DNA of 55,542 nucleotides from Ferrithrix thermotolerans DSM 19514 (GTDB taxonomy: Bacteria; Actinomycetota; Acidimicrobiia; Acidimicrobiales; CAIXPF01). Every line of letters starts with the position of its first letter. The first letter of the stretch is position 1. The DNA is taken from contig CAMDQT010000023.1 in the NCBI GenBank assembly GCA_945906305.1, positions 1 through 55,542 on the forward strand, in the 5' to 3' direction. The notes under the pieces are model-generated. The model did no database searches. It saw nothing but the letters and a program-made list of their open reading frames with translations, and was not told the origin of the DNA. Of the stretch, positions 35,832-54,799 are shown piece by piece. Made by a program: the position numbers and the translations under genes.

Positions 35832-38105
35832 TCACTGCATGGCCTGCGCCGCCCGGGCCTCCGCCCGCGGCGAACGCACCGGGTTACCCGCCACCTCGAT
35901 CACCACGTGATCGAGCACACCGTCGGGTAGCTCGGCGCGGCCGATGAGCTCGGCACAGATCGGGCTGCTCGGCTGAGCGCCCACGCAGAACGGAGCGAAT
36001 CCGAAGGTGACGGGGGTGGTAGCGGGTAGCAGGCCCGAACCGACTGCCACATCGTCGTAGAACAACGCCACCGTCCCACCTGTTCGTTCTCCCGGCGTGA
36101 ACTCCAGTCGGGCGATCACCGGACCCATCGGCAACTCGACCTCGGCCACCACCCGGTGCTCGCTAGCACCGAGCACGTTGTGCACGAAGTGCAACCGGCG
36201 ACCTTTCACGAACAGTGCATACCCTCCAGTATGACTGCCATGGCACACAATGACCCCGTCCATCACCTGGGCCCGAGAGGCATCGAGCACGGCGAGGATC
36301 CGATACCGTCGGCGGCGCAGGTTGGGCGCCATCGCTTCGGGGATGGATGAGATACCAGGGTGGTACACGTAACGTTCCCGGACGAAACGAACGTCGCCGT
36401 AGCGGCCCGGTTCGTTGTTCAGCGGCAGGACTTGGTTGCGTGCCGCTTCCGCCCACCACAGCTGCTGGAGTTCAGCCAGCTTCTCGGGCTGTGCCGTCGC
36501 CAGATCGCGACACTCCGAGAAATCTTCGGCAACGTGGTACAGCTCCCACACGTCTTGCTCGAAACTGCGCCTGGCATCACTGCCGTCATAGACGATCGCG
36601 GCCGGCGGGTGGTAGACCACCGCCTTCCAGCCGTCGTGGTACAGCGCCCGCGAGCCGAGCATCTCATAATACTGAGTAGTATGGGCCGAGGGCGCGGTCG
36701 CTGCGACGAAGGTAGGGGCGAAGCTCACCCCGTCAAAGGGCGACTGGGCCACACCGTCGATGTAGCCGGGAGCCTCAATGCCGATGACGTCGAGCAGGGT
36801 CGGCACGAGGTCCACGGCGTGCACGTACTGGTGACGGGTCTCTCCGGGCCGGCCAATGCCGGAGGGCCAATGCACGATTAACGGGTCGCACACCCCACCC
36901 TCGTGGGTGTCGCGCTTGAACCTCTTCAGCGGCGTGTTTCCCGCCCACGCCTAACCCCATGGATAGTGGTTGCTGGCCCGGGGGGTGCCAAGGTCGTCGA
37001 TGCGGCGCAGGTTCTCGGCCAAGGACTCGGGCACAAAGTTGAAGAAGTACATCTCATTGAACGATCCACCCGCACCGCCCTCGGCCGACGCACCGTTGTC
37101 ACTCATCAAGACCACGATGGTGTCCTCGGATTCGCCGAGCCGATCGATGAACGCGAGCAGGCGGCCGAGTTGGGCATCGGTATGGGTGAGGAACCCGGCG
37201 TACACCTCCATCATCCGGGCGTACAACCGGCGCTCATCGGCCGAGAGGCTCTCCCAAGACGGCACCCATGATGGGCGGGGAGACAACTCGGTACCGGCCG
37301 GCAGCAGCCCGGAGGCCACCTGACGGGCGAACACCTGCTCACGCCAGCGGTCCCAACCAGCGTCGAAGTGGCCGCGGTAGGGCTCGATGTACGCCGCGGG
37401 GGCCTGATGGGGTGCGTGGCACGCCGCGGGCGTGAACCATAGGAAGAACGGCTTGTCCGGGTCGTAGGCCCGCAGGTCCTTCAGATAGGATATCGAGCGT
37501 TCCACCAGATCTTCGGTCAGGTGATAGCCATCCTCCGGTCGTCGAGGCGGCGGCACCTGATGGTTGTCGTGGATCAACTCCGGGTGGTACTGGTCTGTCT
37601 CGCCCGCCATGAATCCGTAGAAGCGCTCGAAGCCCTTGCGCAAGGGCCAGTGGTCGCGCGGGCCGCCGAGCGCCAACTCGTGGGCCGGGGTGAGGTGCCA
37701 TTTCCCCACCGCGAAGGTCGCATAGTGCTGGGACAACAGGATCTGGGACAGGTAGCCGTGCTCCGGGGGGATGTCGGTGTCGTAGCCGGGAAAGCCGGAG
37801 GAGAACTCCACGATGCGACCCATACCGGTGGCATGGTGGTTTCGGCCGGTGAGCAACGCCGCCCGCGTCGGTGAGCACAGCGCCGTGGTGTGGAAGTTGG
37901 AGTAGCGGAGCCCTTCGGCGGCGAGACGGTCGAAGTTCGGGGTGGCGATATCGGAGCCGTAGCAACCGAACTGGCCATAGCCCACGTCATCGAGCAGCAC
38001 GACCACCACGTTGGGCGCACCACGCGGCGCCGACGGCTTAGGTGGCCACCACGGCGTGGAATCCTCGAACGTCGAGCCGATCACGCCTTCGAACGCTTTG
38101 CTCAT
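35832..38105 (-). pseudogene. Arylsulfatase interrupted by an in-frame TAG codon
   Basis: The full frame is 757 codons and matches type I arylsulfatases of AtsA size. Metal site NVVVVLLDDVGYGQFG (about 32-47), formylglycine motif TALCSPTRAALLTGR (Cys 77) and MSDNGASAEGG (about 340) are intact. Codon 385 is TAG (36951-36953) inside the conserved run HYPWG-TAG-AWAGNTPLKRFKRD, where relatives have a residue, usually Trp. One TGG-to-TAG change explains it. The frame then continues without shift through CDPLIVHWPSG and the C-terminal beta domain to 35832. Without readthrough the product is 384 residues and lacks the substrate-binding Lys region. A sequencing error or recent inactivation are both possible. 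Confidence 0.85.
36951..36953 (-). other. In-frame amber codon inside the arylsulfatase
   Basis: CTA on the plus strand is TAG in the reading frame. Both flanking segments (36951-38105 and 35832-36893) lie in the same frame, so this is a nonsense change and not a frameshift. Confidence 0.9.
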
Positions 38106-38253: not shown

Positions 38254-38826
38254 ATGACACGTAAACCGCAGGACCCCACCCAGCCGCCGGTGTACGGCCT
38301 GGACCATTCCGCCTATCGCTGCCGCGACGCCGAGGAGACCCGAGCCTTCTACGAAGACGTGCTCGGCTTCCCGCTCACGCTCGCTCTGCACATCGACCGC
38401 CACCCCACCACCGGTGAACCGGTGGACTACCTGCACATCTTCTTCGACATTGGCAGCGGCGACCCCGACAATCCCAGCCACATCGCCTTCTTCGAGGTGG
38501 TCGACCGGCCCGAGGACGACCCGGCGGAACTGTTCAAGCGCCGCTGGGGCATGGACCTGCACTTCGCGATGCGCGTCGACGGACACGCCGCCCTGCACAC
38601 CTGGAAGCAACGTCTCGACGACCGTGGGGTCAGCGTGGAGGGCCCGATCGACCACGGCATGTTCCGCTCGATCTACTTCCACGACCCCAACGGCTACCGC
38701 CTCGAGTTCGCCTCGGCCGAACAAGCCGAAAAGCGGCTCTTTGAGCAGGAATCCGCCGGGGCCCGCGAGCAGATGGCCCGCTGGAACGCCTGGAAGCAGT
38801 CACGCCACATGGTGCACGCTTCCTGA
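38254..38826 (+). CDS. VOC (glyoxalase/extradiol-type) superfamily protein
   Basis: This 190-residue protein has paired beta-alpha-beta-beta-beta modules: YGLDHSAYRCRDAEETRAFYEDVLGFPL (about 14-41, given here as parts: HSAYRC, FYEDVLGFPL), HIAFFEV (about 78), LHFAMRVDG (about 103) and HDPNGYRLEF (about 149). His and Glu positions suit a single divalent metal. Superfamily members include glyoxalases, extradiol dioxygenases and epimerases. It opens a plus-strand run that continues into the Rieske oxygenase operon, so an aromatic-ring or ring-cleavage role is plausible. GGGAGCAGGA precedes ATG 38254. Confidence 0.87.
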   Translation: MTRKPQDPTQPPVYGLDHSAYRCRDAEETRAFYEDVLGFPLTLALHIDRHPTTGEPVDYLHIFFDIGSGDPDNPSHIAFFEVVDRPEDDPAELFKRRWGMDLHFAMRVDGHAALHTWKQRLDDRGVSVEGPIDHGMFRSIYFHDPNGYRLEFASAEQAEKRLFEQESAGAREQMARWNAWKQSRHMVHAS

Positions 38827-38889
38827 GCACACCCACCGTCCGCCCCCGACCCGCAACCCGCAACAACCCCAGCAGGAGCAGCAGGCAAG

Positions 38890-39744
38890 ATGCAGGAACT
38901 GAACGGCCGGGTCGCGGTCATCACCGGGGCCGCGAGCGGCATCGGGTTGGCCACCGCCCACCGTCTTGCCGCCGAGGGCATGGACCTCGTGCTCGCCGAC
39001 ATCGAGCCGGGCCCGTTGGCGCAGGCCGAGACAGCCTTGGGTGCTTACGGCGGGCGGGTATTGGCTGTGCCCACCGATGTCAGCTCCGAGGCTGCAGTTC
39101 AGGCACTGGCTGATGCCGCGTTCAGCGCGTTCGGCTCCGTCCACGTGCTGTTCAACAATGCCGGGGTGGCGGCCACTGCGGCCACCCTGCGCATGCGGGC
39201 CTGGGAAGGGTCATTGGCCGACTGGGACTGGACGATGGGCGTCAACTTCCTCGGCGTGCTCTACGGCGTACGAGCCTTCGTGCCGCGCATGCTCGAGGGC
39301 GGCCACGAGGGTCACATCGTCAATACCGCGTCCATGGCCGGCCTGCTCACTGGCGCCAACCCCTACAACGTGTCCAAGCACGCCGTGGTCTGTCTCAGCG
39401 AAGGTATCTACAAGGACCTGCGCGAGATGGGCGCCAAGCTCTCCGCGTCGGTGCTGTGTCCGGGCCTGATCAACACCCGCATCCTCGACGCCGAACGCAA
39501 CCGAGGCGACGGGCTCGGCAGCCACACCGATATGGCCGCCCTACGCCAGGACCTGCAGCGCTTCGCCACCGGGTTCGAGTCGGCGCTGAAGGGTGGCTAT
39601 CCACCCGATGTGGTGGCCGAAACGGTCCTCGACGGGATTCGCGAGGACCGCTTCTACTTGTTCCCGGCGCAAGCGTTCATCCTTGAGCAGGTCTCCGCCC
39701 GCATGACCGCCATCATCCAAGGTGCCAACCCGGCGACACGCTGA
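38890..39744 (+). CDS. SDR-family dehydrogenase
   Basis: This classical SDR of 284 residues shows TGAASGIG (about 13-20), ADIEPG at strand 2 (NAD preference by Asp), NNAGV (about 92), NTASMAG and catalytic YNVSK (about 158-162). The longer C-terminus (DGIREDRFYLFPAQAF) resembles SDRs that act on bulky alcohols. It sits 63 bases after the VOC gene and 85 before the Rieske oxygenase alpha subunit, so it is probably co-transcribed. It may oxidise an alcohol formed by the oxygenase. Confidence 0.92.
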   Translation: MQELNGRVAVITGAASGIGLATAHRLAAEGMDLVLADIEPGPLAQAETALGAYGGRVLAVPTDVSSEAAVQALADAAFSAFGSVHVLFNNAGVAATAATLRMRAWEGSLADWDWTMGVNFLGVLYGVRAFVPRMLEGGHEGHIVNTASMAGLLTGANPYNVSKHAVVCLSEGIYKDLREMGAKLSASVLCPGLINTRILDAERNRGDGLGSHTDMAALRQDLQRFATGFESALKGGYPPDVVAETVLDGIREDRFYLFPAQAFILEQVSARMTAIIQGANPATR

Positions 39745-39829
39745 ACGGGCGATAGGCAGCCACCCACGCCACCATCGCCGATGTTCTAACTTGGCCCCTC
39801 AGCTTATCTCCGATCCGGGGGTCCGATCC

Positions 39830-41215
39830 ATGACCGGCGTCACCGAGAGCCAGTTCGTCATCGACGACCGCATCACCCCCCGCTTCCGGGTACACCGCTC
39901 GGCCCTGGCCGATCCAGCGGTCTTTGAGGCCGAACGCCGCGCCATCTTCGACCACAGCTGGCTCTACGTCGGCCACGAGTCCGAGATCACCAGCCCCTAC
40001 GATTTCCGCACCCGGCGAGTGGGCGGACGCCCAGTGATCTTGCTGCGCGACGGCGACGGTTCGGTCCGGGTATTCGTCAATACCTGTCCCCACCGCGGCA
40101 TGCAGATCGAGACCAGGGCTGAGGGCAACGGCCGCTTCCTCAAATGCTTTTATCACGGGTGGTCCTTCTCCACCGCCGGCGAGTTGGTGGCCTTGCCCGA
40201 CGAGGCGTCCTACGGAGAGAACTTCGACCGCCACAACCTCTGTCTGGCCCAGCCGGCCCAGGTCGACAGCTACCGAGGTTTCGTCTTCCTCAGTTGGAGC
40301 ACCTCCCCCGGGTCTCTGCTGGACTACCTCGCCGGGGCGGCGGACTACCTCGACCTCGTGGCCGACCAGTCCGACACCACCATGGTGGTAAGTGGCGGCA
40401 CTCACCTCTATGCGGCCCGCGCCAACTGGAAGCTGTTGTCGGAGAACAGCTACGACGGGTACCACGCCCTGACCACCCACCACCGCTACCTGGCCATGCT
40501 CAAGGCCTCGGGCAAGGACATGGCCCGGGCGTTCGGCGCCGGTGTTCGCACCGATGCCAGCACGGTCCAAGGCCGGGCGCTGGCCTGGGACCTCGGCCAC
40601 GGACATGCCGTGGTGGGGGCACCAGACCGCAGCCGCGGACAGAACTTCCCCCTCGGACGCGACTTCATCTCCGCATCTGCGGCCCATGCCCAAGCGGAGC
40701 GCTACGCCCACTTTGCCCAGGCTCATGGCGAGGACTGGGCGGCGCGCATGTTCGGCAGCCGCAACGTGGTCATCTTTCCCAACCTCGCCATTGTCGATTT
40801 GGGAATGGGCATCACCATTCGGACCTACGATCCGCTCTCGGCGGACAGCATGGAGATCACCGCCTGGGCTATCGCCCCCGGCGAGGACCATCCCGAACTG
40901 GCCCGCATGCGGCGGGAGAACTTCTTGACCTTCTGGGGCCCTGCGGGCTTGGCCACGCCCGACGACATCGAGGCGCTCGAACGTTGCCAGCAGGGATACG
41001 CCGCCCGCGACGCCGCCCCCTGGACCGACATCTCACGCGGCATGGTGAGGGCCAACCCTCTGACCACCGACGAGTTGCAAATGCGGACCTTCTGGCGCGA
41101 ATGGGACCGGCGGATGACCGGAACCATCCATCCCTCGGAGGTGGCTGTGTCGCCGCGAGCCGGACGGGTCGCGCTGCCCTACGACGCCCGGGTGCAATCG
41201 GCGGGATTTCGATGA
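39830..41215 (+). CDS. Rieske aromatic-ring-hydroxylating dioxygenase, alpha subunit
   Basis: This 461-residue oxygenase large subunit has a Rieske [2Fe-2S] site made of NTCPHRGM (Cys 86, His 88) and KCFYHGWSF (Cys 106, His 109). The catalytic iron site is NSYDGYHALTTHH (about 205-217, D-x2-H-x4-H), linking electron transfer between neighbouring subunits. The enzyme adds both atoms of O2 to an aromatic ring to give a cis-dihydrodiol. The beta subunit overlaps at ATGA. No ferredoxin or reductase is encoded in the window, so electrons must come from elsewhere. ATG 39830 follows a GGGGG stretch; the frame is open 36 codons further without support. Confidence 0.95.
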   Translation: MTGVTESQFVIDDRITPRFRVHRSALADPAVFEAERRAIFDHSWLYVGHESEITSPYDFRTRRVGGRPVILLRDGDGSVRVFVNTCPHRGMQIETRAEGNGRFLKCFYHGWSFSTAGELVALPDEASYGENFDRHNLCLAQPAQVDSYRGFVFLSWSTSPGSLLDYLAGAADYLDLVADQSDTTMVVSGGTHLYAARANWKLLSENSYDGYHALTTHHRYLAMLKASGKDMARAFGAGVRTDASTVQGRALAWDLGHGHAVVGAPDRSRGQNFPLGRDFISASAAHAQAERYAHFAQAHGEDWAARMFGSRNVVIFPNLAIVDLGMGITIRTYDPLSADSMEITAWAIAPGEDHPELARMRRENFLTFWGPAGLATPDDIEALERCQQGYAARDAAPWTDISRGMVRANPLTTDELQMRTFWREWDRRMTGTIHPSEVAVSPRAGRVALPYDARVQSAGFR

Positions 41216-41730
41216 GTGCACCCACGGAGCAACCTCGAGCCCACGTCGACCCCGTGCTGCGCCTCGAGGTCGAGGCCTTCCTGCACCTCGAAGCGGAGTT
41301 GCTCGACGAGTGGCGCCTGAAGGAATGGCTAGAGCTGTTCACCGTGGACTGCAACTACCACGTTCCGTCCACCGATGTTCCCGACGGAGATCCCGACACC
41401 CACCTTTTCTTTGTCCGCGACGACCATTTCCTGCTCGGCCAGCGCGTCGAAGCACTGCTCAACGGCACGGCATGGGCGGAGAGCCCTCGCTCCACCACCC
41501 ACCGGATGATCGCCAACGTACGACCAGTCGAGTCGCGGCCGGGCACCGTTTCAGTCCAGGCCAATGCACTGGTGCACCGCTCCCGGGCCAACCGCCTCGA
41601 TTGTTTCCCTGTCCGCTACCGCTACACGCTGATTCGTGGCGGGCCGGACCAATTCAAGATCAGCTACCGACGGGCCACGCTCGCACTTGAGCAACTCCGA
41701 CCAGCGGGCCGGCTTTCAATCATTCTCTAA
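41212..41730 (+). CDS. Ring-hydroxylating dioxygenase, beta subunit
   Basis: This 172-residue NTF2-like small subunit stabilises the alpha3beta3 oxygenase. Typical marks are EVEAFLHLEAELLDEWRLKEW (about 19-39), DCNYHVP, THRMIANVRP (about 97-106) and the C-terminal YRRATLALEQLRP...LSIIL, which matches the usual 'LS(I/V)FL' end. It overlaps the alpha gene by 4 bases. A much longer frame runs upstream through the alpha gene, but it is a chance frame in the wrong register. Confidence 0.93.
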   Translation: MSAPTEQPRAHVDPVLRLEVEAFLHLEAELLDEWRLKEWLELFTVDCNYHVPSTDVPDGDPDTHLFFVRDDHFLLGQRVEALLNGTAWAESPRSTTHRMIANVRPVESRPGTVSVQANALVHRSRANRLDCFPVRYRYTLIRGGPDQFKISYRRATLALEQLRPAGRLSIIL

Positions 41731-41740
41731 GCCCCACACC

Positions 41741-41747
41741 GAGGAGG
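41741..41747 (+). promoter_or_regulatory. Strong ribosome binding site of the extradiol dioxygenase
   Basis: GAGGAGG lies 8 bases before ATG 41756 and sets the start against an in-frame upstream extension into the beta-subunit gene. Confidence 0.7.
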
Positions 41748-41755
41748 CGGCACCT

Positions 41756-42802
41756 ATGGCCGAGGTTCAGCTGTTGGGCATGACCCACTATCCACCGTTC
41801 AACGGTAAGGACGAGGCGATGGCCAACCTGCATCGCGTCATGCTGGCGGATCCGGCCGTGCCCACAGACGTCAAAGACCCTCTCAACTGGCCCGCCGCTC
41901 AACGCGCCGAATGGGCCACCGACGGCGGCACCGGCGCCGCAGGGCAACACCGCGCCGCGCTCATCGAAGGGTTCGACCGGGTACGGGCCGAGATCGACGC
42001 GTTCGCCCCCGACTTCGTGTTGATCTGGGGCGACGACCAGCACGAGAACTTTCGACGCGATCTGATCCCACCGTTCGCGGTGCTCGCCTATGAGGACCTC
42101 AAGGTCGAACCGTGGCACCAGGCACGACAGCCGAACTTCTGGGACGAGCCCGCAGACACCTACCGGGTGGTACGGGGCCATCCTGAAGCCGGTCGCTTCC
42201 TCGCCACCGCCCTGCTCGAGGCCGGGGTCGACGTCGCCTACGCCTACGAACCGCTGCACCACCAAGGCTTCGCCCATGCCTTTCTCAACACCGTGCTGTT
42301 CCTCGACCACCGTCGCCGCGGCTTCGACCTGCCGGTGCTGTGCATGCCGGTGAACTGTTACGGCCGCAAAGTCATCGCGGCGGGCGGTGCGTTCAAACCG
42401 TTCGGCACCGCAATGCAGCTGGACCCACCTTCGCCGCCACCGTGGCGACTCATGGATGTCGGGGCGGCGGCGGTGCGGGCATTGCGGGCCAGTCCGTGGC
42501 GGGTGTCGGTGGTGGCGTCCTCATCGTGGTCTCATGCCTTCCTCGTGGACCACAACTGGCGGATGCGCCCAGACACGGCCGCGGACCGGGGGCTGTACGA
42601 CGCGCTCGTGGCTGGCGATTGGGCCCGCTGGGCGGCCATCACCACCGCCGAGATCGAAGCGGCAGGACAGCAAGAAGTCCTGAACTGGTTCGTCCTCGCC
42701 GGTGCCGCCCGCGAACTCGGCGCGGTACCGACCTGGAGCAGGTTCGTGGAAACCTGGTGTTTCAATTCCAACAAGGTGTTCGCCGTATGGGAACCGCAAT
42801 GA
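41756..42802 (+). CDS. Class III (LigB-type) extradiol ring-cleavage dioxygenase
   Basis: This 348-residue non-heme Fe(II) enzyme opens catechol-type rings next to the hydroxyls. LigB-fold marks are LLGMTHYPPF (about 6-15), LIWGDDQHENF (about 98-108), EPLHHQGFAHAFLNT (about 165-179) and VVASSSWSHAFLVDH (about 251-265), which supply the His ligands and the acid/base His. The N-terminal half carries an insert (TDVKDPLNWPAAQRAEW) compared with protocatechuate 4,5-dioxygenase LigB. It follows the Rieske oxygenase by 25 bases and overlaps the SDR by 4, the expected order for dihydroxylation, rearomatisation and cleavage. Confidence 0.87.
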   Translation: MAEVQLLGMTHYPPFNGKDEAMANLHRVMLADPAVPTDVKDPLNWPAAQRAEWATDGGTGAAGQHRAALIEGFDRVRAEIDAFAPDFVLIWGDDQHENFRRDLIPPFAVLAYEDLKVEPWHQARQPNFWDEPADTYRVVRGHPEAGRFLATALLEAGVDVAYAYEPLHHQGFAHAFLNTVLFLDHRRRGFDLPVLCMPVNCYGRKVIAAGGAFKPFGTAMQLDPPSPPPWRLMDVGAAAVRALRASPWRVSVVASSSWSHAFLVDHNWRMRPDTAADRGLYDALVAGDWARWAAITTAEIEAAGQQEVLNWFVLAGAARELGAVPTWSRFVETWCFNSNKVFAVWEPQ

Positions 42803-43632
42803 GTCCCGCCGCCTCACCCGATCGCCGCCTAGCCGGAAAGGTGGCCCTGGTGACGGGCGCATCGGCCAACATCGGCGGCGCCCTCGCCTTGGGCTTGGCC
42901 CAGGCCGGTGCCGCGGTGGCCTGCAACGACCTCATCCCCGCCACGGCGACCGCGAGCACGGCACGCCTGGTGGAGGCGGGGTACGACGCGATGGCGCTGC
43001 CCTTCGACGTCACTGACCATGATGCCGCCGCCGCGGCGGTGAATCAGGTCGTTGACCGATGGGGCCATATCGACATTCTGGTGAACAACGCGGTGAAATT
43101 CGATCAGGCCGGTGTGCTCGACATGACGGTCGAACGCTTCCGTCGCCAGGTCGACATCATCGTCGGCGGAGCGTTCATCATGACCAAGCTCGTGGCCACC
43201 GCCATGATCGAGCAGTCCGGGCGCGGCGCGATCGTCAACATCTTGTCCACTGCCGCCTGGCAGGGCCAGGCCGGCAACGTCGGGTACTCGACCGCCAAGT
43301 CGGCCATGATCAACTTCACCCGGTCCGTGGCGATGGAGTTGGCGCCGCACGGCATCCGGGTCAACGCTCTCACCCCGACCGCGACCATCCCCGACGAGCC
43401 CGCCCTCGCGGCACGGACCCAGGCCGCGTTCGACTCGCTGGCCAGCGCCGGGCGGATGGACTTCGCGGGGCTGAACCCGTGGGAGCGCCTGCCCACCCCA
43501 GCGGACTACGTGGCGCCGCTGGTTTTTCTGTGTTCGGAGGACTCGGCGATGATGACGGGCACCAACCTCACCGTGGACGGTGGGGCGCTGGCCCGCTACT
43601 GGCCGCAGATCCCCGCCCGAGGGCCGCGCTGA
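42799..43632 (+). CDS. SDR-family dehydrogenase (candidate cis-dihydrodiol dehydrogenase)
   Basis: This 277-residue SDR shows TGASANIGG (about 20-28), NDLIPATA at strand 2, NNAVKF (NNAG with Val) and catalytic YSTAK (about 159-163) after ILSTAAWQG. It ends with TNLTVDGGALARYW. In ring-dioxygenase operons this position is normally filled by the dehydrogenase that rearomatises the cis-diol to a catechol, which the adjacent extradiol enzyme then cleaves. I chose ATG 42799, which overlaps the previous stop; ATG 42787 would add four residues. The stop overlaps the amidohydrolase start. Confidence 0.92.
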   Translation: MSPAASPDRRLAGKVALVTGASANIGGALALGLAQAGAAVACNDLIPATATASTARLVEAGYDAMALPFDVTDHDAAAAAVNQVVDRWGHIDILVNNAVKFDQAGVLDMTVERFRRQVDIIVGGAFIMTKLVATAMIEQSGRGAIVNILSTAAWQGQAGNVGYSTAKSAMINFTRSVAMELAPHGIRVNALTPTATIPDEPALAARTQAAFDSLASAGRMDFAGLNPWERLPTPADYVAPLVFLCSEDSAMMTGTNLTVDGGALARYWPQIPARGPR

Positions 43633-44636
43633 TGAGCCCGGCCATTCCTGTCATCGACATCCATGCCCACCATTTCCCACTCGGCCTGCCCGACCTCGGG
43701 TCACGGACCGGCGAGCACCGCTGGCCGACACTCGTCGTGTCTGCGGACCGCCGCAGCGCCGACATCCGCCGCGGTACGGAACTGTTCCGCCGGGTGAGCC
43801 CAAGCTGCTTCGACGCCAGCGCCCGCATCGCGGAAATGGACCGGGCCGGGGTGCACCGTCAGGTGATCTCCCCGGTCCCGGTGATGTTGACCGACTGGGC
43901 ACCAGTCGGCCCCGCGAGCCTGTTCTGCCGGACCGTCAACGACGCGCTGGCCGAGGTCGCGGCCAGCTCCGGTGGGCGGCTGCTGGCCTTTGGTGCGGTG
44001 CCCTTGCCTCACATCAAGCAGGCGTTGACCGAACTCGAACGGCTGCGCGACGAGTTGGGCCTAGTCGGGGTGGAGCTGAGCGCGTTCCCCGGTGGCCTCG
44101 AGTTCGACGACCCGACACTGGAACCATTCTGGGCGGTATGTGCGGCACAACAAGTGCCGGTGCTGGTACACCCTGCCCACCAGGAACTGAGCATCCGGCG
44201 ACGAGGCCAGCCTTACGAGTTCGGCATCGGCATGCACACCGACACCGCCCTCGCCGCCGCCGCGCTGGTCTTCGGTGGCGTGTTGGATCGTCATCCTGAG
44301 CTGCGGATCGCCCTCTCCCACGGCTGTGGGGCCTTCCCGTGGACCTACCCCCGGCTGCGCTACCAGGCCACCATGACCGAGCCGTCGCGCTCCGCCGCGC
44401 TCGACGACGCGGTACGGCGCCTGTGGGCGGACATCTTGGTGTTCGACCCGTTACACCTCGAGGTGCTCGTCGCCCGTTTCGGGGCCGACCACCTGCTCTA
44501 CGGCACCGACCATCCGTTCTATCCCGACGGATTGCAGGGTCCCATCGACGTACTCAACGCAGCCCGGCGGGCGGGGATTGGTGTCGATGAGCGGGCGCTG
44601 GGACTCAATGCCGTGCAGTTCCTGGGGCTGGGCTGA
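43632..44636 (+). CDS. Amidohydrolase_2 family (ACMSD/LigW-like) decarboxylase or hydratase
   Basis: This 334-residue TIM barrel has metal motif DIHAHHFP (about 9-16), VLVHPAHQEL (His at about 177), ALSHGCGAFPW (about 228) and YGTDHPFYP (Asp at about 293). Similar enzymes include aminocarboxymuconate semialdehyde decarboxylase, 5-carboxyvanillate decarboxylase and oxalomesaconate hydratase. All act just before or after ring cleavage. In this operon it most likely decarboxylates an aromatic acid or processes the cleavage product. It overlaps the SDR stop, and its last 32 bases overlap the convergent hyuB gene. Confidence 0.9.
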   Translation: MSPAIPVIDIHAHHFPLGLPDLGSRTGEHRWPTLVVSADRRSADIRRGTELFRRVSPSCFDASARIAEMDRAGVHRQVISPVPVMLTDWAPVGPASLFCRTVNDALAEVAASSGGRLLAFGAVPLPHIKQALTELERLRDELGLVGVELSAFPGGLEFDDPTLEPFWAVCAAQQVPVLVHPAHQELSIRRRGQPYEFGIGMHTDTALAAAALVFGGVLDRHPELRIALSHGCGAFPWTYPRLRYQATMTEPSRSAALDDAVRRLWADILVFDPLHLEVLVARFGADHLLYGTDHPFYPDGLQGPIDVLNAARRAGIGVDERALGLNAVQFLGLG

Positions 44637-46293
44637 TCGTTTCGCGGCGGGTGACGAAGCCGAGCAGCCGGTCTCGCTCGAGTGCGTCGGGGTCGCGTTC
44701 GGCCACCGGACCGAACCCGCCGCCTCCCGGGAAAGACACCGTGAGGCGACGATTGCCGGGAACAACGGAAACGCCTTTCGCCTTCACCGCTGTACCGTCA
44801 TCGAGGAACAAACTTCCGGTGGCCCCGTCCTCGCCACCGTGGCGACCTCGGGCGGGATAGACCACCCGCTCGTAGGTGGCGCTGATGGTGAAATCGCCAC
44901 CTTGGCGGTTAGCCACCTCGATCAGTTGGCCGTGACCGCCTCGGTAGCGCCCAGCACCGCCTGAATCGGGCCGGAACTCCTTGCGCCAGAACACCAGCGG
45001 TGAGATCAATTCGTTGATTTCCACCGGCATGTTGCGCACCCCGCTGGGGAAAGCGGTGGCCGAGAGGCCGTCCTGGTCGGGACGGGCCCCCGCCCCGCCG
45101 GAATGAAAGCTCATCATGATGAACCGCTCCGGCGCGGCCGCGGGCGACGCGCCGGGCGGGTTCCACGTCCCGGTGGCCAGCAGGTTCCATAACGACGAGG
45201 TGCCCTCGGCGGGCACTCGTTCGGGCACTGCCTGCGCCAAACAGCCGAACACCGCGTCGGGAAGCATCTGGCCCATCACATGGCGTACGTTGACCGCCGC
45301 GGGGTGGGGGGCGTTGAGGATGCAACCCTGCGGTGCGCTCACCCGAACCACGCTCAGCGACCCGCTGTTGTTGGGGATGTCCGGGCCCACGATGCAGCGC
45401 ACCCCGAAAGAGGTGTAGGCCGTCGTGTAGGCCATCGGGACATTGATTCCGAACGGTACCTGCGCACTCGTACCGGTGAAATCGACGTCGATGGCCCCGG
45501 CGGCGACGGTCAGGGTGGTCACGATGTCGATGGGCTCGGTCATCCCGTCGACCCGCATGGTGGAGTGCCACGTTCCCTGTGGCAATTCGGCCACCGCGGC
45601 CTCCATGGCCGTGCGGGACGCCTCGATGATGTGCTCACCAAGTTCGTCGAGGTCGTCGAGGCCGTATTCGTCCATCATCGACACCAGCCGCTTGGCACCA
45701 ATGTCGTTGCAGGCGGCGAGGGAATGGATATCGCCGATCACCTGAACCTTGTCGCGGACGTTCGCCTCGATGATGGCCACCACGTTGGGATCGAACACCC
45801 CGTCGCGGCCGAAACGCATGATCGGCAGGAACAGGCCCTCGTGGTACACCTCGCGGGAGTCGGTGGAAAAGCCGGTTCCACCAATGTCCACCACGTGGCT
45901 GGTGCAGGCAAACAGCGCCACTGCCCGACCTTGGCGAAAGACCGGGGTCACAACCACGATGTCGAAGAGGTGACCGGTACCGCGCCACGGGTCGTTGGTG
46001 AGGAAAATGTCGCCTGGAGACATGCCCGCGAGCGGAAACGCTTCAAGGAAATGCAGCACCGACGCCGCCATCGAGTTCACGTGACCTGGCGTGCCGGTGA
46101 TGGACTGGGCCAGCATCCGGCCCTGCGGGTCGAACACCCCCGCGGACAGGTCGCCCGCTTCCCGGGTGGAGGTACTGAACGCGGCTCGCACCAGTGTCGT
46201 CGCCTGTTCCTGCACCACGGATATCAACCGGTTCCACATCAGGTCGCGACGCAGTTCGTCGAGGCCGCCGGAAGTCCTTTCGATGACGGTCAT
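44605..46293 (-). CDS. hyuB: Hydantoinase B/oxoprolinase-family subunit
   Basis: This 562-residue subunit of the HyuA/HyuB-type ATP-dependent hydrolases or carboxylases carries the conserved motif FLTNDPWRGTGHLFDIVVV (about 97-115), TSHVVDIGGTGF, DFTGTSAQVPFGINVP (about 270), and the Gly-rich C-terminus RYRGGHGQLIE and VSFPGGGGFGP. It pairs with HyuA (4-base ATGA overlap) to open cyclic amides such as hydantoin or 5-oxoproline, or to carboxylate ketones in related systems. The exact substrate is unclear. The 3' end overlaps the aromatic operon by 32 bases on the opposite strand. Confidence 0.92.
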   Translation of the reverse strand: MTVIERTSGGLDELRRDLMWNRLISVVQEQATTLVRAAFSTSTREAGDLSAGVFDPQGRMLAQSITGTPGHVNSMAASVLHFLEAFPLAGMSPGDIFLTNDPWRGTGHLFDIVVVTPVFRQGRAVALFACTSHVVDIGGTGFSTDSREVYHEGLFLPIMRFGRDGVFDPNVVAIIEANVRDKVQVIGDIHSLAACNDIGAKRLVSMMDEYGLDDLDELGEHIIEASRTAMEAAVAELPQGTWHSTMRVDGMTEPIDIVTTLTVAAGAIDVDFTGTSAQVPFGINVPMAYTTAYTSFGVRCIVGPDIPNNSGSLSVVRVSAPQGCILNAPHPAAVNVRHVMGQMLPDAVFGCLAQAVPERVPAEGTSSLWNLLATGTWNPPGASPAAAPERFIMMSFHSGGAGARPDQDGLSATAFPSGVRNMPVEINELISPLVFWRKEFRPDSGGAGRYRGGHGQLIEVANRQGGDFTISATYERVVYPARGRHGGEDGATGSLFLDDGTAVKAKGVSVVPGNRRLTVSFPGGGGFGPVAERDPDALERDRLLGFVTRRETISPAPGTARH

Positions 46294-48407
46294 GGGAAAC
46301 CCCCTGGAGTGAGCGTGACACGAGAGAGCAAAAGATGGCCCCCGGGCCCCCGGCGTACGGTGAAGCCCTCGGGCACGACGGTGGTGGTCTGGTCCTCAAT
46401 GACCAGCGCCGGACCATCGAGCGGCTGGGGGCCGAGCACGGAGCGCTCCACCACCAGGTGGGGCACGACCGCGCCAGTGCCAGGGTCGAGTACCTCGGCG
46501 AAGGCGCGCCGCGCGGGCGGCTGGAGCGCGGGGGCGGTTCCCACCCATGGCTGCGGGGTGAGCACCGTACGCACCGTCAGCAACCAGGTCAACGCCTCCA
46601 CGCCCAGGCCGGGGATTTCACGGGTGTACATATCCCGGTAGGCGTGCAAGAACCGGCTCGCCAAGGTGTTCCGTATGGCTTGATCATCGGGGCGGACACC
46701 TTCTGGGGCGATGAGATCCTCCAGGGGCAGGGCCACGGTTATCTCGTGGCCCTGGCCCCGGTAGCGCATGAACGCTCTCGCGGAAGCCGTGGTCGGCTCG
46801 CCGGGTGCCGCCCCCTGCACGACCTCAGTGGCCTCGGCCACCATGGCCCTGAGCAGCGAGCCGAGTTCATCGCCGCGCAGGTCCTCGATGCGGCGATGCC
46901 ACGTACGGACCGATTCGTGCGCGGCCGGGGCGCGCAGAAAGCCGATGGCGGATCCCACCCCGGCTCCGGACGGGATGACGATGTGATCGATGCCCAGCTT
47001 GGTCGCCACCCTCGCCGCGTGTAGCGGTGCCGCACCGCCGAAGGCGATGAGAGTGGAACCGCTGACATCACAGCCCCGCTCGATCCCATGGACCCGGCCC
47101 GCGTTGGCCATGTTCTCGTCGACCACCTCGCTCACGCCTACTGCGGCGACCTCCAACGTCAAGCCACCCGGCTCGGCAATGGCCCGGCGCAAGGCCGTCG
47201 CGGCGGCGTCGAGGTCCAGCGGAAGCTCACCACCGGCGAAACGCTCGGGCAGTATCCGGCCCAGCAACAGGTCGGCATCGGTGACGGTGGGTTCGGTCCC
47301 ACCGCGGCCATAGGCGGCCGGCCCGGGTTCGGACCCGGCGCTACGGGGGCCAACGGCGATCCGGCCCAGCGCGTCGCGCCCCGCCACGGAGGAGCCACCG
47401 GCCCCGATCTCCACCATGTCGATCACCGGCAGGCGCAGCGGCAGCCCACTGCCAGGAAGAAATCGATACTGGCGACCGACTTCGAACTCGCGGCTGGTGT
47501 GCGGCTCACCGTGCTCGACGATGCACAGCTTGGCGGTAGTACCTCCCATGTCGAAGCTGAGCGCCATAGCCACCCCGAGGTCCCGGGCGATCTCCGCCGC
47601 GAGCAAAGCGCCCCCGGCCGGACCGCTCTCGATGAGCCGAACGGGGTGACGCACCGCCTCGGCCAGCGTTCCGAGGCCCCCGCCGGACTGCATGAGGTAC
47701 ATCGGGCAGGTCATACCGAGGCCCCGGCGGCGTCCTTCGAGGTCGAGTAGGTACCTTTGCATCAACGGCTGGATGTAGGCGTTGGCACACGCCGTCGAGA
47801 ACCGCTCGTACTCGCGGATCTCGGGGCACACCTCCGACGAAAGGGTGATCGGGACCTCGGGCCACACCTCCGCCACCAACTCCCGCGCCCGTCGCTCGTG
47901 GGCGTCGAAGCGGTAGCTGTGCAAAAACCCGATGGCGATGCTTTGCACGCCGAGGTCACGCAGTTCGAGCGCTGCTTGACGCACGGCATGCTCGTCGAGC
48001 GCGAGCAGAACAGTGCCATCCGCGGCCAGACGTTCCGGTATGCCAACCCGCCGATGGCGCGGGACCAGCGGATCGGGGCGTGTCATGGCGAGGTCGTATT
48101 GGGCGAAACGGTCTTCATGGGCCATCTCGACCGCGTCCCGTAACCCCGCCGTCGTGAGCAAGGCGGTGTCGGCACCGCGCCGCTCGATCAGGGCATTGGT
48201 GGCCAGAGTGGTGCCGTGAACGAACACCGTCACATCAGCGCCACACAGCCCGGCCCCGGCCAACACCTTGGCCGTACCGTCAAGGACCGCCGCCGCCGGC
48301 TCGCGTTGTGTGGTCAGCACCTTGGCCGTATGCAGCGTCGAGCCAACCTGGAGGGCGATGTCGGTAAAAGTCCCCCCGATGTCCGCTGCCAACCGCACGT
48401 CGTTCAT
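46290..48407 (-). CDS. hyuA: Hydantoinase A/oxoprolinase-family ATPase subunit
   Basis: This 705-residue ASKHA-fold subunit uses ATP to activate the substrate. Phosphate-binding motif AADIGGTFTDIAL (about 7-19), VHGTTLATNALIERRGA (about 64-80) and a second phosphate segment LSFDMGGTTAKLC (about 288) are intact, with ALIAFGGAAPLHA-like STLIAFGGAAPLHA (about 450). The length is normal for the family. It is first in the minus-strand pair and divergent from the amidohydrolase gene over 96 bases. ATP-dependent lactam or hydantoin opening is the default reading; acetone- or acetophenone-carboxylase-like activity is an alternative. Confidence 0.93.
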   Translation of the reverse strand: MNDVRLAADIGGTFTDIALQVGSTLHTAKVLTTQREPAAAVLDGTAKVLAGAGLCGADVTVFVHGTTLATNALIERRGADTALLTTAGLRDAVEMAHEDRFAQYDLAMTRPDPLVPRHRRVGIPERLAADGTVLLALDEHAVRQAALELRDLGVQSIAIGFLHSYRFDAHERRARELVAEVWPEVPITLSSEVCPEIREYERFSTACANAYIQPLMQRYLLDLEGRRRGLGMTCPMYLMQSGGGLGTLAEAVRHPVRLIESGPAGGALLAAEIARDLGVAMALSFDMGGTTAKLCIVEHGEPHTSREFEVGRQYRFLPGSGLPLRLPVIDMVEIGAGGSSVAGRDALGRIAVGPRSAGSEPGPAAYGRGGTEPTVTDADLLLGRILPERFAGGELPLDLDAAATALRRAIAEPGGLTLEVAAVGVSEVVDENMANAGRVHGIERGCDVSGSTLIAFGGAAPLHAARVATKLGIDHIVIPSGAGVGSAIGFLRAPAAHESVRTWHRRIEDLRGDELGSLLRAMVAEATEVVQGAAPGEPTTASARAFMRYRGQGHEITVALPLEDLIAPEGVRPDDQAIRNTLASRFLHAYRDMYTREIPGLGVEALTWLLTVRTVLTPQPWVGTAPALQPPARRAFAEVLDPGTGAVVPHLVVERSVLGPQPLDGPALVIEDQTTTVVPEGFTVRRGPGGHLLLSRVTLTPGGFP

Positions 48408-48452
48408 CGTTGCAGCCTAAGGGAACGCCAATCAGCGGAGCCGAACTTGCGT

Positions 48453-48458
48453 TAGAAT
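48453..48458 (+). promoter_or_regulatory. Possible -10 promoter element for the amidohydrolase
   Basis: TAGAAT in an otherwise GC-rich 96-base divergent gap lies 45 bases before ATG 48504. No convincing -35 box is seen at 17 bases, so it is a weak candidate. Confidence 0.25.
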
Positions 48459-48503
48459 CCTCCGGCCGAGTTCACCACGGCACGAGGACGGGGGCCGCGA
48501 AAC

Positions 48504-49646
48504 ATGGTGCACATCGTCGATGCCGATTCTCATCTCTTCGAGCGGCCTGAGTTGTGGCTGGAGCATGTTGATCCGGCCCAGCGCCACCTCGCTTTCACCA
48601 TGGATCGAGACGCCAACGGCTGGGACTGGGTCTCCTTTCAGGGACGCAAGATCCTTGAGACGTGGATCCCCACCTGTGGCGAGTTCCGTACCCTCGGCCC
48701 GGTGCTCGAGCGTTGCCGTCAGGGACTACCCTGCGAGTTCGACTACGCCCGCGACCTGCCGCAGCACTACTGGGAACCCAAGGCACGGGCCGCGGCGCTT
48801 GACGACTTCGGGATCGACGAGTCGCTGCTGTTCCCCCATTGGGGGCTCAATTGGAGCCTCGCCATGCGTGACGAACCGCAAGGCCGCCTGGCCAACGAAG
48901 TGGCATGGAACCGGTGGGCGGTGCACGTTCGCGCCGAGGGCGGCGGGCGGCTACACCCAGTCGGACATCTCGAGCTACTCGATCTGGACTGGTTGGAGCA
49001 GCAGTTGGCGTTGCTCGCCGCCGCTGGCATCACCACGGGCTGGATCCCGGCCGGGCTCGTCAACGGCTTGGCGCCGAGCCATCCCGACCTCGACCGGGCG
49101 TGGTCGATGTTCGAGCATTACGGCGTCAACCCCGTCTTCCATGTCGGTGCCAACCCAATCCGGCCTCTCGCCGATGGCTGGTATGCCGGCCACCACAGCG
49201 AGTATCTGCCCTTGCTGGCCTTCCCGTTCCTCGGCCTCGACGTGTTCGTCACCCTGTGCGACCTGGTCCTCAACGGGGTGATGGAACGGCACCCAAAGCT
49301 GCGCTTCGGGGTGATGGAAGTCATGACGGACTGGTTCCCCATGTTGCTGCGCCGCCTCGATTCGACCCCATACAGCGAGCTCCAGATCACCGGGCGCTCC
49401 TCGATGAAACTCTCGCTCAAGCCCAGTGACTACATCCGCCGTTCGGTGCGTATCTCGGCGTTCTCCTCCGAGCGGCCTGGTGCCACCATCGACGCGGTCG
49501 GACCGTTGCTCATGTGGAGCGCCGACTATCCCCACCCCGAGGGAGAGCCGACGCTGGACGTGTATCGGCGCAATGCCGGGCCCATCGCCCCCGAGGCCGC
49601 CAACTCCTTCTGGGGCGAGAACGCCTCGTTCATCCTTGGACGCTGA
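48504..49646 (+). CDS. Amidohydrolase_2 family protein
   Basis: This 380-residue barrel has DADSHLFERPELW (about 6-18, D-x-H metal site), VFHVGANPI (about 212), GVMEVMTDWFPMLLRRLD (about 271) and the C-terminal MWSADYPHPEGEPT (about 337) carrying the Asp. It is of the same group as the genes at 26669, 43632 and 54965, but clearly different in sequence from them, so this is not recent duplication. It has its own likely promoter opposite hyuA and converges on the acyl-CoA ligase (14-base gap). The reaction could be decarboxylation or C-C/C-N hydrolysis. Confidence 0.9.
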   Translation: MVHIVDADSHLFERPELWLEHVDPAQRHLAFTMDRDANGWDWVSFQGRKILETWIPTCGEFRTLGPVLERCRQGLPCEFDYARDLPQHYWEPKARAAALDDFGIDESLLFPHWGLNWSLAMRDEPQGRLANEVAWNRWAVHVRAEGGGRLHPVGHLELLDLDWLEQQLALLAAAGITTGWIPAGLVNGLAPSHPDLDRAWSMFEHYGVNPVFHVGANPIRPLADGWYAGHHSEYLPLLAFPFLGLDVFVTLCDLVLNGVMERHPKLRFGVMEVMTDWFPMLLRRLDSTPYSELQITGRSSMKLSLKPSDYIRRSVRISAFSSERPGATIDAVGPLLMWSADYPHPEGEPTLDVYRRNAGPIAPEAANSFWGENASFILGR

Positions 49647-49660
49647 CCTGCCGCGAGCGC

Positions 49661-51175
49661 TCAGCGGGGCGTGAAGCGAGCCCGCGCCTCTTGCGTCAGC
49701 GCGGTCTTGTCGATCTTGGCCGTCCCCCCGAGGCGTATCTCGTCGACAAAGTAGACCGCCCGGGGATGGGCGTAGGCAGGTCCGTGCTCGATGGACCAAG
49801 CCCGCAACTCCTCCTGGGACAACGATGCGTCCGCAACGCGGACCACGAACGCCACCGGCAACGCCCCCTTCAGCTCGTCCGGTACCGCCACCACCGCCGC
49901 CTGGTGGACCGCCGGATGGCGTTCGAGCAACTGCTCGACATCGCCGGGATAGACGTTCTCGCCCCCGCAGACAAACATGTCATCGACCCGGCCGACGAAG
50001 AAGTACCAGCCGGCCTCGTCGCGTTGCATCACGTCACCGGTGTGATACCAGCCATCGGTCAGCCGGGCCGCGGTGACCTCGGCGAGGTTGTGATAGCCGT
50101 TCATGACGCCTGCACTGCGAATCCAGAACTCGCCCGGGTTGGCATCGAGGCCGGTCTCGGGGTCCACCAGACGCGCCTCCACGGTGGGTAGCGGATAGCC
50201 GAGAGCAATCTTGGGGCGCGGCGCCTGCTGCGGATGGGGGCCGAAGCAGGCAATGGACTCCGTCGTGCCGTAGCCGTTGGTTATGGCGGCGTGGGGGAAC
50301 AACGCGCTGACCTGGTCGAACAACGCCTCCGTCATCGGGGCCGATCCGATCATCAACCGGCGAACGCAGGACAGATCGAGCGAGGCCACCAGCTCGCTCT
50401 TGGCCGCCATCAACGCAAACATGGTGGGTACGCCGGTCAGGCTGGTGGCCCGCTGGTCGGCCACGGCTTGGAGGTACTCGGCGGCGTCGAACCGGCCCAG
50501 AAGAACGATCTGACCACCAAGGGCGAGGTTCACCTTGGTCTGCACCATGGCGTTCTTGTGGTACATCGGCGCGGACACCAAGATCCGCTCGTCTGCGCTC
50601 ATGAAGAACCCGCCGCTGGTGTACTGCTCAACCGTGAAGCTTTGGCTGCCATGGGACAGCAGCACGCCCTTGGGACGCCCGGTCGAACCCGAGGTGTACA
50701 TCTGCACCGCCACCGCCGTGGGATCGAGCAGCACCGCGTCGGCCGGGTCCGCGGCGACAAACTGGGCCCATTGCGGCCCGCCGATGCGTATCGCTGGCCG
50801 ACCCGGTGGCAGCCGTTCGAGGTTCGCCTCATCGACGAAGATCAGCGCCACATCAGCGTCGTTGACGATGTAACTCAGCCCGTGCACGGACAGCTTGGTG
50901 TTCAACGGCACGGTGACCGCACCAATGCGGCAGATGCCGAAATACAACGCCGCGTAGTCGACAGAGTTGTCCGCCAGGATGGCCACGCGGTCGCCGATCC
51001 CAATTCCGAGCGCGGCCAGGCCACCGGCCAGTCGGGCGCACCGCACGGCGAAATGGTCGTACGTAACCGGTACCGCGTCGCCACCTGACACGTCGATGAA
51101 CGCCACCTTGTCCGCGCCTATGTGGGGCTCGAAGATCGTGGCCAGATTCAGTCCGGGACCGGCCGCGGCGGTCAT
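49661..51175 (-). CDS. Acyl-CoA synthetase (AMP-forming)
   Basis: This 504-residue ANL-superfamily ligase joins a carboxylic acid to CoA by way of an acyl-AMP. The P-loop MYTSGSTGRPKGVLLSH (about 157-173), NGYGTTESIACFG (about 299), DGWYHTGD (about 370) and the hinge GRVDDMFVCGGENVYPGDVE (about 386-405) are intact. The C-terminal catalytic Lys lies in GGTAKIDKTAL. It overlaps the oxidoreductase gene upstream by 4 bases. It could activate aromatic or aliphatic acids; the residues lining the pocket do not decide. Confidence 0.94.
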   Translation of the reverse strand: MTAAAGPGLNLATIFEPHIGADKVAFIDVSGGDAVPVTYDHFAVRCARLAGGLAALGIGIGDRVAILADNSVDYAALYFGICRIGAVTVPLNTKLSVHGLSYIVNDADVALIFVDEANLERLPPGRPAIRIGGPQWAQFVAADPADAVLLDPTAVAVQMYTSGSTGRPKGVLLSHGSQSFTVEQYTSGGFFMSADERILVSAPMYHKNAMVQTKVNLALGGQIVLLGRFDAAEYLQAVADQRATSLTGVPTMFALMAAKSELVASLDLSCVRRLMIGSAPMTEALFDQVSALFPHAAITNGYGTTESIACFGPHPQQAPRPKIALGYPLPTVEARLVDPETGLDANPGEFWIRSAGVMNGYHNLAEVTAARLTDGWYHTGDVMQRDEAGWYFFVGRVDDMFVCGGENVYPGDVEQLLERHPAVHQAAVVAVPDELKGALPVAFVVRVADASLSQEELRAWSIEHGPAYAHPRAVYFVDEIRLGGTAKIDKTALTQEARARFTPR

Positions 51176-53611: not shown

Positions 53612-54799
53612 CTAGGCGCTGGGCGAGCGGCGACGAGTCCGCACCGAGGAGATGGCCATAGCCACCGCACCCGCGCACAGGCCCCAGAACGGCGAGCCGA
53701 TCCCTAACAAGGTGACCCCGGACAGCGTGACCACAAAGGTCAGAATCGCCGGTTCCCGGTTTGAGGTGTCCGCGGTGGCCACCACCAGGCTGTTGCCGAT
53801 GGTCGGCAGCAAGGCGAGCGCCGCGACGATATGCACCAGTTCAGTGGGAAAGGCCCGCAGGGCAGCAGTAATTGAGGTCCCGAAGAGGCCGGCGATGAGG
53901 TATAAGCCGCCGTTGGCCAGCGACGCGGTGTAGCGGCGCGAGGCATCCTCGTGGGCCGCGGGCTCCATGCAGATCGCCGCGGTGACCGCCGAAAGGTTGA
54001 ACGAGTAACCCCCGAAGGGGGCCAACAACACGGTGGCGACCCCGGTACTGCCGATCACCTTGGACACCGGGATGCGGTAGTCGGTGGACCGGATCACCGC
54101 CACGCCCGGCAGGTTCTGGCCCGCCATGGTCACGATGAAGACCGGTAGAGCGATGCCCATCATCGCTGAGAACGCAAAGGTCGGTGCGGTGAACACCGGA
54201 CGGGCCAGCGCCCATTGCAGCATGTCCGTCTGCAGGGAGTGGGCCAACATCGACATCGCCACCCCCACCACCAGCACCCCGATGACCGCATAACGGGGCT
54301 GGAACCTGCGCAAGGCGAGATACACCAGTGTCGTAACCACCACCAGCCCCGGGGAGGTCTTGGCGTCCGCAAACCCGCTCACCACGAAGCGGGCCAGAAC
54401 CCCCGCCAGCAACGCCCCGACCAGGGGCAAGGGGATGCGGTTCATGACCTGTTCGAACAGGCCGGAATAGCCCACGATGGCGGCCAAGACGCCGCCGATC
54501 ATGAACGCCCCAATCGCCTGGGCCAGCGTGAAGGCGCCCGGCGGCAGGGTGGCCAGAACGGCTGCACCGGGGGCGGAGAAGGCAATCATCACCGGCGCCC
54601 GGTAACGCAACGAGGACACGATGATCAGCCCCGCCATGCCCACGCACAGAGCCCAGACCCACGACGTGATCTCGGCGTCGTTCGCACCAAGGTTCCTCGC
54701 CGCCTCGAAGACCAACGTGATGCCGCTGGTCAACCCGACCATGCAGGCGATGAAACCAGCGGTGAGCGTCGAGGGCGAGAAATCACGCAGGATCGGCAC
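53612..54799 (-). CDS. benE: BenE-family benzoate/H+ symporter
   Basis: This 395-residue protein has about 12 hydrophobic segments of the nucleobase/ascorbate-like BenE group. LTSGITLVFEAARNLGA (about 23-39), SWVWALCVGMAGL, VMIAFSAPGAAVLA (about 70), MAGQNLPGVAVIRS (about 220) and FGGYSFNLSAVTAAICM (about 257) follow the family pattern. BenE carriers import benzoate or similar aromatic acids with protons. That agrees with the aromatic-ring operon at 39.8-44.6 kb and the ligase nearby. It is the second clear permease in the window. Confidence 0.92.
   Translation of the reverse strand: MPILRDFSPSTLTAGFIACMVGLTSGITLVFEAARNLGANDAEITSWVWALCVGMAGLIIVSSLRYRAPVMIAFSAPGAAVLATLPPGAFTLAQAIGAFMIGGVLAAIVGYSGLFEQVMNRIPLPLVGALLAGVLARFVVSGFADAKTSPGLVVVTTLVYLALRRFQPRYAVIGVLVVGVAMSMLAHSLQTDMLQWALARPVFTAPTFAFSAMMGIALPVFIVTMAGQNLPGVAVIRSTDYRIPVSKVIGSTGVATVLLAPFGGYSFNLSAVTAAICMEPAAHEDASRRYTASLANGGLYLIAGLFGTSITAALRAFPTELVHIVAALALLPTIGNSLVVATADTSNREPAILTFVVTLSGVTLLGIGSPFWGLCAGAVAMAISSVRTRRRSPSA

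Follow-up and report, generated by a model that had tools for sequence, protein, structure and literature searches.

A putative five-gene module with a LigB-type extradiol dioxygenase for benzoate-type acids in Ferrithrix thermotolerans

Which aromatic compound would be opened by a gene set that couples a Rieske oxygenase to a LigB-type extradiol dioxygenase, and where does this set begin and end? The question is raised by a locus of the soil-type actinobacterium Ferrithrix thermotolerans DSM 19514 (genome G000; 3.1 Mb, 52 contigs, 97.9% complete), on the 55,542-base contig C23, the whole of which is called the window here. An earlier note, made from the sequence, had described seven genes following one another on one strand as an aromatic-ring operon: a vicinal oxygen chelate (VOC) protein, a short-chain dehydrogenase/reductase (SDR1), the alpha and beta subunits of a Rieske oxygenase, the LigB-type enzyme, a second SDR (SDR2) and an amidohydrolase. 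The open reading frames and Pfam agree with this order, and all seven products score above the cut-off of their Pfam families (Table 1). The last five genes are probably a catabolic cassette for a benzoate-type acid, presumably either benzoate itself or a 4-alkylbenzoate, p-cumate for example; the probability of this reading is estimated at about 60%.

In the proposed pathway, the alpha and beta subunits would form a cis-2,3-dihydrodiol, drawing their electrons from shared partners whose genes lie elsewhere. The dihydrodiol would then be rearomatised by SDR2 to a 2,3-dihydroxybenzoate, after which the LigB-type enzyme would cleave the C3-C4 bond. In the last step the ACMSD-like amidohydrolase would remove the 3-carboxyl, yielding a 2-hydroxy-6-oxo-hexa-2,4-dienoate. 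Dihydroxylation, rearomatisation and ring cleavage, with a decarboxylase or hydratase step, had already been suggested in the earlier note; with decarboxylation as that step, this is still the best reading. We infer the regiochemistry, the substrate, the order of the steps and the fate of the product, and with them that the module would place a LigB-type cleavage enzyme within a 2,3-dihydroxybenzoate-type meta-cleavage pathway known with type I enzymes.

By the fold of its model and its Pfam score (32.1 bits, cut-off 26.3), the ring-opening enzyme is assigned to the LigB superfamily of extradiol dioxygenases. The solved structures nearest to the model (pLDDT 93.8) are DesB, LigB and MhpB, with Z scores of 27.2 to 24.8 and 17-20% identity, while a sequence search of the solved structures returned MhpB as the sole match (E 0.22). 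With the protocatechuate and gallate dioxygenases LigB and DesB the enzyme shares the fold (Z 26.5-27.2, 259-267 of 348 residues aligned) and presumably the type of His/Glu site; it differs from them in its low identity (~18%) and its surrounding genes. The residues H11, H65, H260 and E307 are kept in all 41 homologues; they may correspond to the catalytic His and to the metal ligands of the superfamily, which are two His and one Glu. Since these 41 sequences align over their entire length and the fold is that of LigB/DesB, the extra residues, called an insert in the earlier note, are a family trait and no lesion. The protein is proposed to be a 2,3-dihydroxybenzoate-type 3,4-dioxygenase. The characterised cleavage enzymes for 2,3-dihydroxybenzoate and 2,3-dihydroxy-p-cumate fall into the type I (VOC) family in AromaDeg (PMC4250580). 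No LigB-type enzyme for either compound was found in the literature searched, which mostly excluded subscription papers. The window enzyme would belong to a widespread and apparently uncharacterised kind of ring-opener that replaces the usual type I enzyme.

The Rieske alpha subunit points to the substrate class. Its best NCBIfam model is the benzoate 1,2-dioxygenase BenA, at 234.4 bits against a cut-off of 780.95, so that its sequence marks it as a relative of BenA and not as a BenA equivalog. It is 33.7% identical to XylX, 31.3% to AntA and 29.6% to HcaE, and the beta subunit is 31.5% identical to HcaF. In the phylogeny, which the earlier note had suggested as a check, alpha is one of the 24 rows in a clade of LigB-linked enzymes (100/99) that joins XylX and AntA at 98/96, with HcaE outside on a long branch. 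Alpha is accordingly grouped, as far as the tree goes, with the benzoate-family Rieske dioxygenases broadly defined (XylX/AntA, not HcaE), which favours a benzoate-like acid. The second alpha of Mycobacterium locus L092, beside XylX, stands outside the 24-row clade, and so does a further group of alphas linked to LigB (PdxA-type proteobacterial loci, L056, L112).

For the two last enzymes, the evidence comes from neighbourhoods and known relatives. Homologues of SDR2 with 54-71% identity adjoin LigB or alpha genes in the relatives. The amidohydrolase aligns end to end with human-type ACMSD entries (residues 8-333 to 3-330, E 7e-44), and the alignment retains the presumed metal ligands (His/Asp) as well as two Arg residues. 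With this full-length similarity and the presumed active-site residues retained, it is an ACMSD-family protein by sequence, and it is proposed to remove the 3-carboxyl of the ring-cleavage product.

The decarboxylation step is further suggested by the gene partners of LigB. A total of 88 LigB loci was compared: the window slice, L038, seven plasmid regions and 79 genome loci from the best 80 stretches. The gene caller had overlooked LigB in 7 of the 79, so partners were counted independently of it, with a minimum score of 120 bits for an ACMSD-like gene and of 60 bits for a class II aldolase. An ACMSD-like gene was found in 35 loci, a class II aldolase in 6, both in 0 and neither in 47; alpha was within reach in 38. 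The known 3-carboxy-2-hydroxymuconate semialdehyde decarboxylases are OpaD, which is ACMSD-related, and DhbB, a class II aldolase (PMC6362003). The two families alternating in the LigB loci are exactly these two, which argues for decarboxylation of a 3-carboxy product. 3-Carboxy-2-hydroxymuconate semialdehyde is itself stable and requires a decarboxylase (PMC12442788).

Two known pathways are comparable. The opa pathway of Pseudomonas sp. PTH10 likewise combines a BenA/AntA-related Rieske alpha/beta, an SDR diol dehydrogenase, an extradiol enzyme and an ACMSD-related decarboxylase; however, its substrate is o-phthalate, its OpaC is not LigB-type but related to DhbA, a type I (VOC) enzyme, and the pathway comes with a ferredoxin and a reductase of its own and a complete set of lower-pathway steps (PMC6362003). 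In the cmt pathway for p-cumate of P. putida F1 and P. xenovorans LB400, a benzoate-type acid is also dioxygenated at 2,3, dehydrogenated, cleaved at 3,4 and decarboxylated (PMC5224996), but the cleavage enzyme is of type I (AromaDeg, PMC4250580) and both the full lower pathway and the electron-transfer genes are present (PMC5224996). The p-cumate operons of Rhodococcus sp. T104 (Bae 2007, as cited in PMC5224996) are possibly of the same actinobacterial type, with flanking IclR regulators as in several LigB loci.

The LigB-type cleavage enzyme had been considered unusual and the gene order the locus's own. Neither view is supported: at least 523 of 587 candidate stretches from named genomes encode a LigB relative, and the order alpha-beta-LigB-SDR2-amidohydrolase recurs in other Acidimicrobiia. 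It is complete in L050, runs to SDR2 and then the contig end in L048, and is reduced to LigB-SDR2-amidohydrolase in L047, with no alpha nearby; in the LigB tree the window protein groups with these three at 99/95. In L049 the order is LigB-SDR2-alpha-beta-amidohydrolase, while in L051 and L052 the same five genes are spread over both strands. Within the order, any LigB match at E 0.001 was found in 24 of 298 genomes, and a close one in only three besides G000 (62, 60 and 55%). Among four genomes of the genus (its own, G040, G121 and G152) only its own has a close LigB gene; the G152 match is local, at 38%. A distant-mode search of plasmid DNA returned no record covering 80% of the five genes. 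A P450, an alcohol dehydrogenase and an aldehyde dehydrogenase adjoin the module in L045, and a P450 and an alcohol dehydrogenase lie near it in L052, as would be expected for a route from p-cymene to p-cumate.

Some of these loci deserve a remark of their own. The LigB protein of L121, a locus with two alpha and two LigB genes on a contig labelled Eremiobacterota, differs hardly at all from that of L038, whose contig belongs to the window's order; this may reflect recent transfer or a binning error. LigB genes of the family also occur on contigs of metagenome-assembled genomes titled Klebsiella pneumoniae (L068) and Bordetella parapertussis (L077), which may be mislabelled environmental bins. 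Culturable species with a LigB homologue include Pseudonocardia dioxanivorans CB1190 (L058) and Mycolicibacterium sp. CH28 (L099). Two published cases were considered and set aside: the plasmid of Sphingobium AntQ-1 carries a 50% homologue beside Rieske genes that is unnamed in the excerpt of PMC9836352, and the chemistry of riboflavin catabolism (PMC12746152) differs.

The limits of the module follow from the same-genus genome G121 (locus L207). There the neighbourhood is kept at 82-87% DNA identity: an SDR, the sulfatase, VOC and SDR1 (85% identical each), then an AMP-ligase, a zinc dehydrogenase and the BenE transporter. The blastn alignment ends with the final base of SDR1 (39744) and restarts at 49663, next to where the convergent AMP-ligase gene ends. 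In between, the window carries 9,918 bases with the genes for alpha, beta, LigB, SDR2 and the amidohydrolase, the hydantoinase B and A pair and a further gene. In their place G121 has 1,593 bases of unrelated sequence. Because G121 keeps VOC and SDR1 without the module and the alignment breaks at 39744, these two genes predate the module or are independent of it. They were therefore dropped as operon members, and the functional module is taken to be the five genes from 39830 to 44636. Insertion in the window genome and replacement in G121 may both explain the block, the alignment fitting either equally, and scans for repeats and for promoters or terminators at the block edges gave nothing usable. 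The VOC protein was also considered as a second ring-cleavage enzyme, given that its residues 132-151 match the type I extradiol dioxygenase signature, as does the XylE control. Such a role is conceivable, but the closest solved structure bears the name glyoxalase, and G121 keeps the gene although it lacks the module.

The spacing is +63 bases from VOC to SDR1 and +85 from SDR1 to alpha. Within the module, the overlaps noticed before are borne out: -4 between alpha and beta, -4 between LigB and SDR2 (or -16; SDR2 has an alternative ATG start at 42787) and -1 between SDR2 and the amidohydrolase, with +25 between beta and LigB. A longer alternative start of alpha is a GTG at 39722.

As stated before, open reading frames and Pfam reveal no ferredoxin or reductase gene in the seven-gene locus. 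A search of the genome for the ferredoxin had also been suggested earlier. Among 13 Rieske-domain matches in G000 the sole small Rieske protein (110 residues) has a SufBD protein and an ABC ATPase as its neighbours, which places it in a suf operon; plant-type and [4Fe-4S] ferredoxins were not searched. The genome further contains one Reductase_C ferredoxin reductase (contig C4) and one FAD_binding_6 reductase (contig C36). Given so few reductases and the one small Rieske protein, the nine Ring_hydroxyl_A oxygenases probably share few electron-transfer partners. In L157 (3719-4390) a called gene has its VanA_C match ahead of the Rieske domain. Normally the Rieske domain comes first, and the inversion may be an effect of gene calling.

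Several points weigh against the benzoate-type pathway. SDR2 is only 28-31% identical to HcaB, XylL and a pCAR1 SDR, and the trees were built without CmtAb, CmtC, DhbA and OpaC sequences. More than half of the LigB loci have neither decarboxylase, though many contigs are short, and the absence of any ACMSD/aldolase overlap has a chance of 0.042 with the relatedness of the loci ignored, hence only a moderate exclusion. The classical continuation is missing in G000: the 4-hydroxy-2-oxovalerate aldolase (DmpG) stays below the cut-off (54 vs 286 bits), the acylating acetaldehyde dehydrogenase has no match in the genome, and the ring-fission hydrolase of L052 has no close counterpart in it. The hydrolase test does not discriminate, as only the L052 genome is positive and close matches are absent even from genomes whose lower pathway is complete. 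The aldolase is likewise below the cut-off in the genomes of the five closest relatives, L047, L048, L049, L050 and L051 (completeness apparently 92% for L049 and 78% for L051, and not given for most other compared genomes). It is above it in those of L118, L058 and L113, and in that of L052 it is split in two, the larger piece scoring just below at 280.8 bits. The dehydrogenase is above cut-off in L052, L118, L058 and L113 and in 0 of the 6 others (G000, L047-L051).

A different lower pathway is a tentative possibility. G000 has a hydratase-like FAA-family gene (199.7 bits, cut-off 408.8), and such hydratase/decarboxylase homologues of ~200 bits, under the cut-off, occur in five of the six genomes without DmpG, the exception being L051. 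The same five have an RraA-like aldolase, the other four being 57-65% identical to that of G000. The two genes are direct or near neighbours in L202, L203 and L204 and lie on different contigs in G000; the genomes of L058, L113 and L118 have RraA-like genes as well. The link to the module is a lead only, with LigB-less genomes of the genus outside the comparison. This Acidimicrobiia clade might conceivably follow a LigB-type 2,3-dihydroxybenzoate dioxygenase by a lower pathway that dispenses with DmpG and acylating acetaldehyde dehydrogenase, perhaps using a hydratase/decarboxylase of the FAA type together with an aldolase of the RraA type, the latter often encoded next to a RidA protein. A second aromatic island of the genome (L218, contig C37) contains an intradiol dioxygenase pair, an FAD hydroxylase and a lyase, all of which resemble pca/pob genes, and an RraA-RidA pair; by eye, some of its genes resemble boxB/boxC.

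Other substrates have to be weighed against a benzoate-type acid. A phthalate-type dicarboxylic acid could be attacked next to one carboxyl, with CO2 lost at the dehydrogenase step and 2,3-dihydroxybenzoate then cleaved and decarboxylated. The opa pathway runs the same logic with the same oxygenase and decarboxylase classes (PMC6362003), and a PdxA-type dehydrogenase is encoded at six LigB loci of proteobacteria, so a phthalate-like substrate is possible for such relatives. For the window it is rather unlikely, as no PdxA gene stands beside the module and SDR2 is only 29% identical to XylL, whereas OpaB is ~50% identical to BenD (PMC6362003). It is also unlikely that the amidohydrolase acts as a C-C hydrolase cutting the ring-cleavage product directly. 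LigY (5,5'-dicarboxybiphenyl meta-cleavage compound hydrolase), of the same superfamily, was matched at 1e-8 and the module holds no other hydrolase gene, but ACMSD is far closer, and many relatives have a separate alpha/beta hydrolase alongside the amidohydrolase.

A 3-hydroxyanthranilate-like ring compound, degraded onward via 2-aminomuconate with RidA-type deamination, would suit the ACMSD-like decarboxylase, the RraA-RidA pair and the LigB fold of 2-aminophenol dioxygenases. For such chemistry, however, a Rieske dioxygenase and a diol dehydrogenase are unnecessary, and the pair lies on another contig among pca/pob type genes, which leaves this substrate quite unlikely. Ring degradation of a steroid or diterpenoid acid, an option of the earlier note that the broad genomic Rieske set (nine matches) might accommodate, is very improbable: alpha groups beside benzoate-type enzymes, and the genome lacks the DmpG-type aldolase that steroid degradation also uses. 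A benzoate-like acid, likewise named in the earlier note, is thus the best-supported option, while the steroid has no support.

Around the module, the hydantoinase A/B pair has no match at the L047-L052 loci, which hold the module in relatives. The product of the further gene of the block resembles a metal-dependent hydrolase, as judged by eye. The sulfatase counterpart in L207 (4508-6781) is a single 757-residue frame, in contrast to the interrupted window copy. The BenE-type transporter is conserved in G121 although the module is absent there.

Table 1. Features of the window discussed in the text
Feature	Position	Strand	Remarks
Sulfatase gene	35832-38105	-	In-frame TAG at 36951-36953
VOC protein	38254-38826	+	190 aa; Pfam; adjoins module, not part of it
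SDR1	38890-39744	+	Pfam; adjoins module, not part of it
Block absent from same-genus genome G121	39745-49662		blastn to L207
Rieske oxygenase alpha subunit	39830-41215	+	461 aa from ATG; Pfam Rieske and Ring_hydroxyl_A
Rieske oxygenase beta subunit	41212-41730	+	Pfam Ring_hydroxyl_B
LigB-type extradiol dioxygenase	41756-42802	+	348 aa; Pfam LigB
SDR2, proposed cis-dihydrodiol dehydrogenase	42799-43632	+	Pfam adh_short_C2
ACMSD-like amidohydrolase, proposed decarboxylase	43632-44636	+	Pfam Amidohydro_2
Hydantoinase B homologue	44605-46293	-	Pfam Hydantoinase_B
Hydantoinase A homologue	46290-48407	-	Pfam Hydantoinase_A
Further gene of the block absent from G121	48504-49646	+	No Pfam match at E 0.001
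BenE-type benzoate transporter	53612-54799	-	Close to contig end

For one clade of Acidimicrobiia, the finding reveals a lower pathway with missing steps. Cleavage of 2,3-dihydroxybenzoate is known so far mainly from type I enzymes. If the proposed pathway is true, a large family now annotated as 'extradiol ring-cleavage dioxygenase' or 'hypothetical' would gain a testable substrate class, the 2,3-dihydroxybenzoates, and pathway annotation would be corrected in Actinomycetota and Pseudomonadota.

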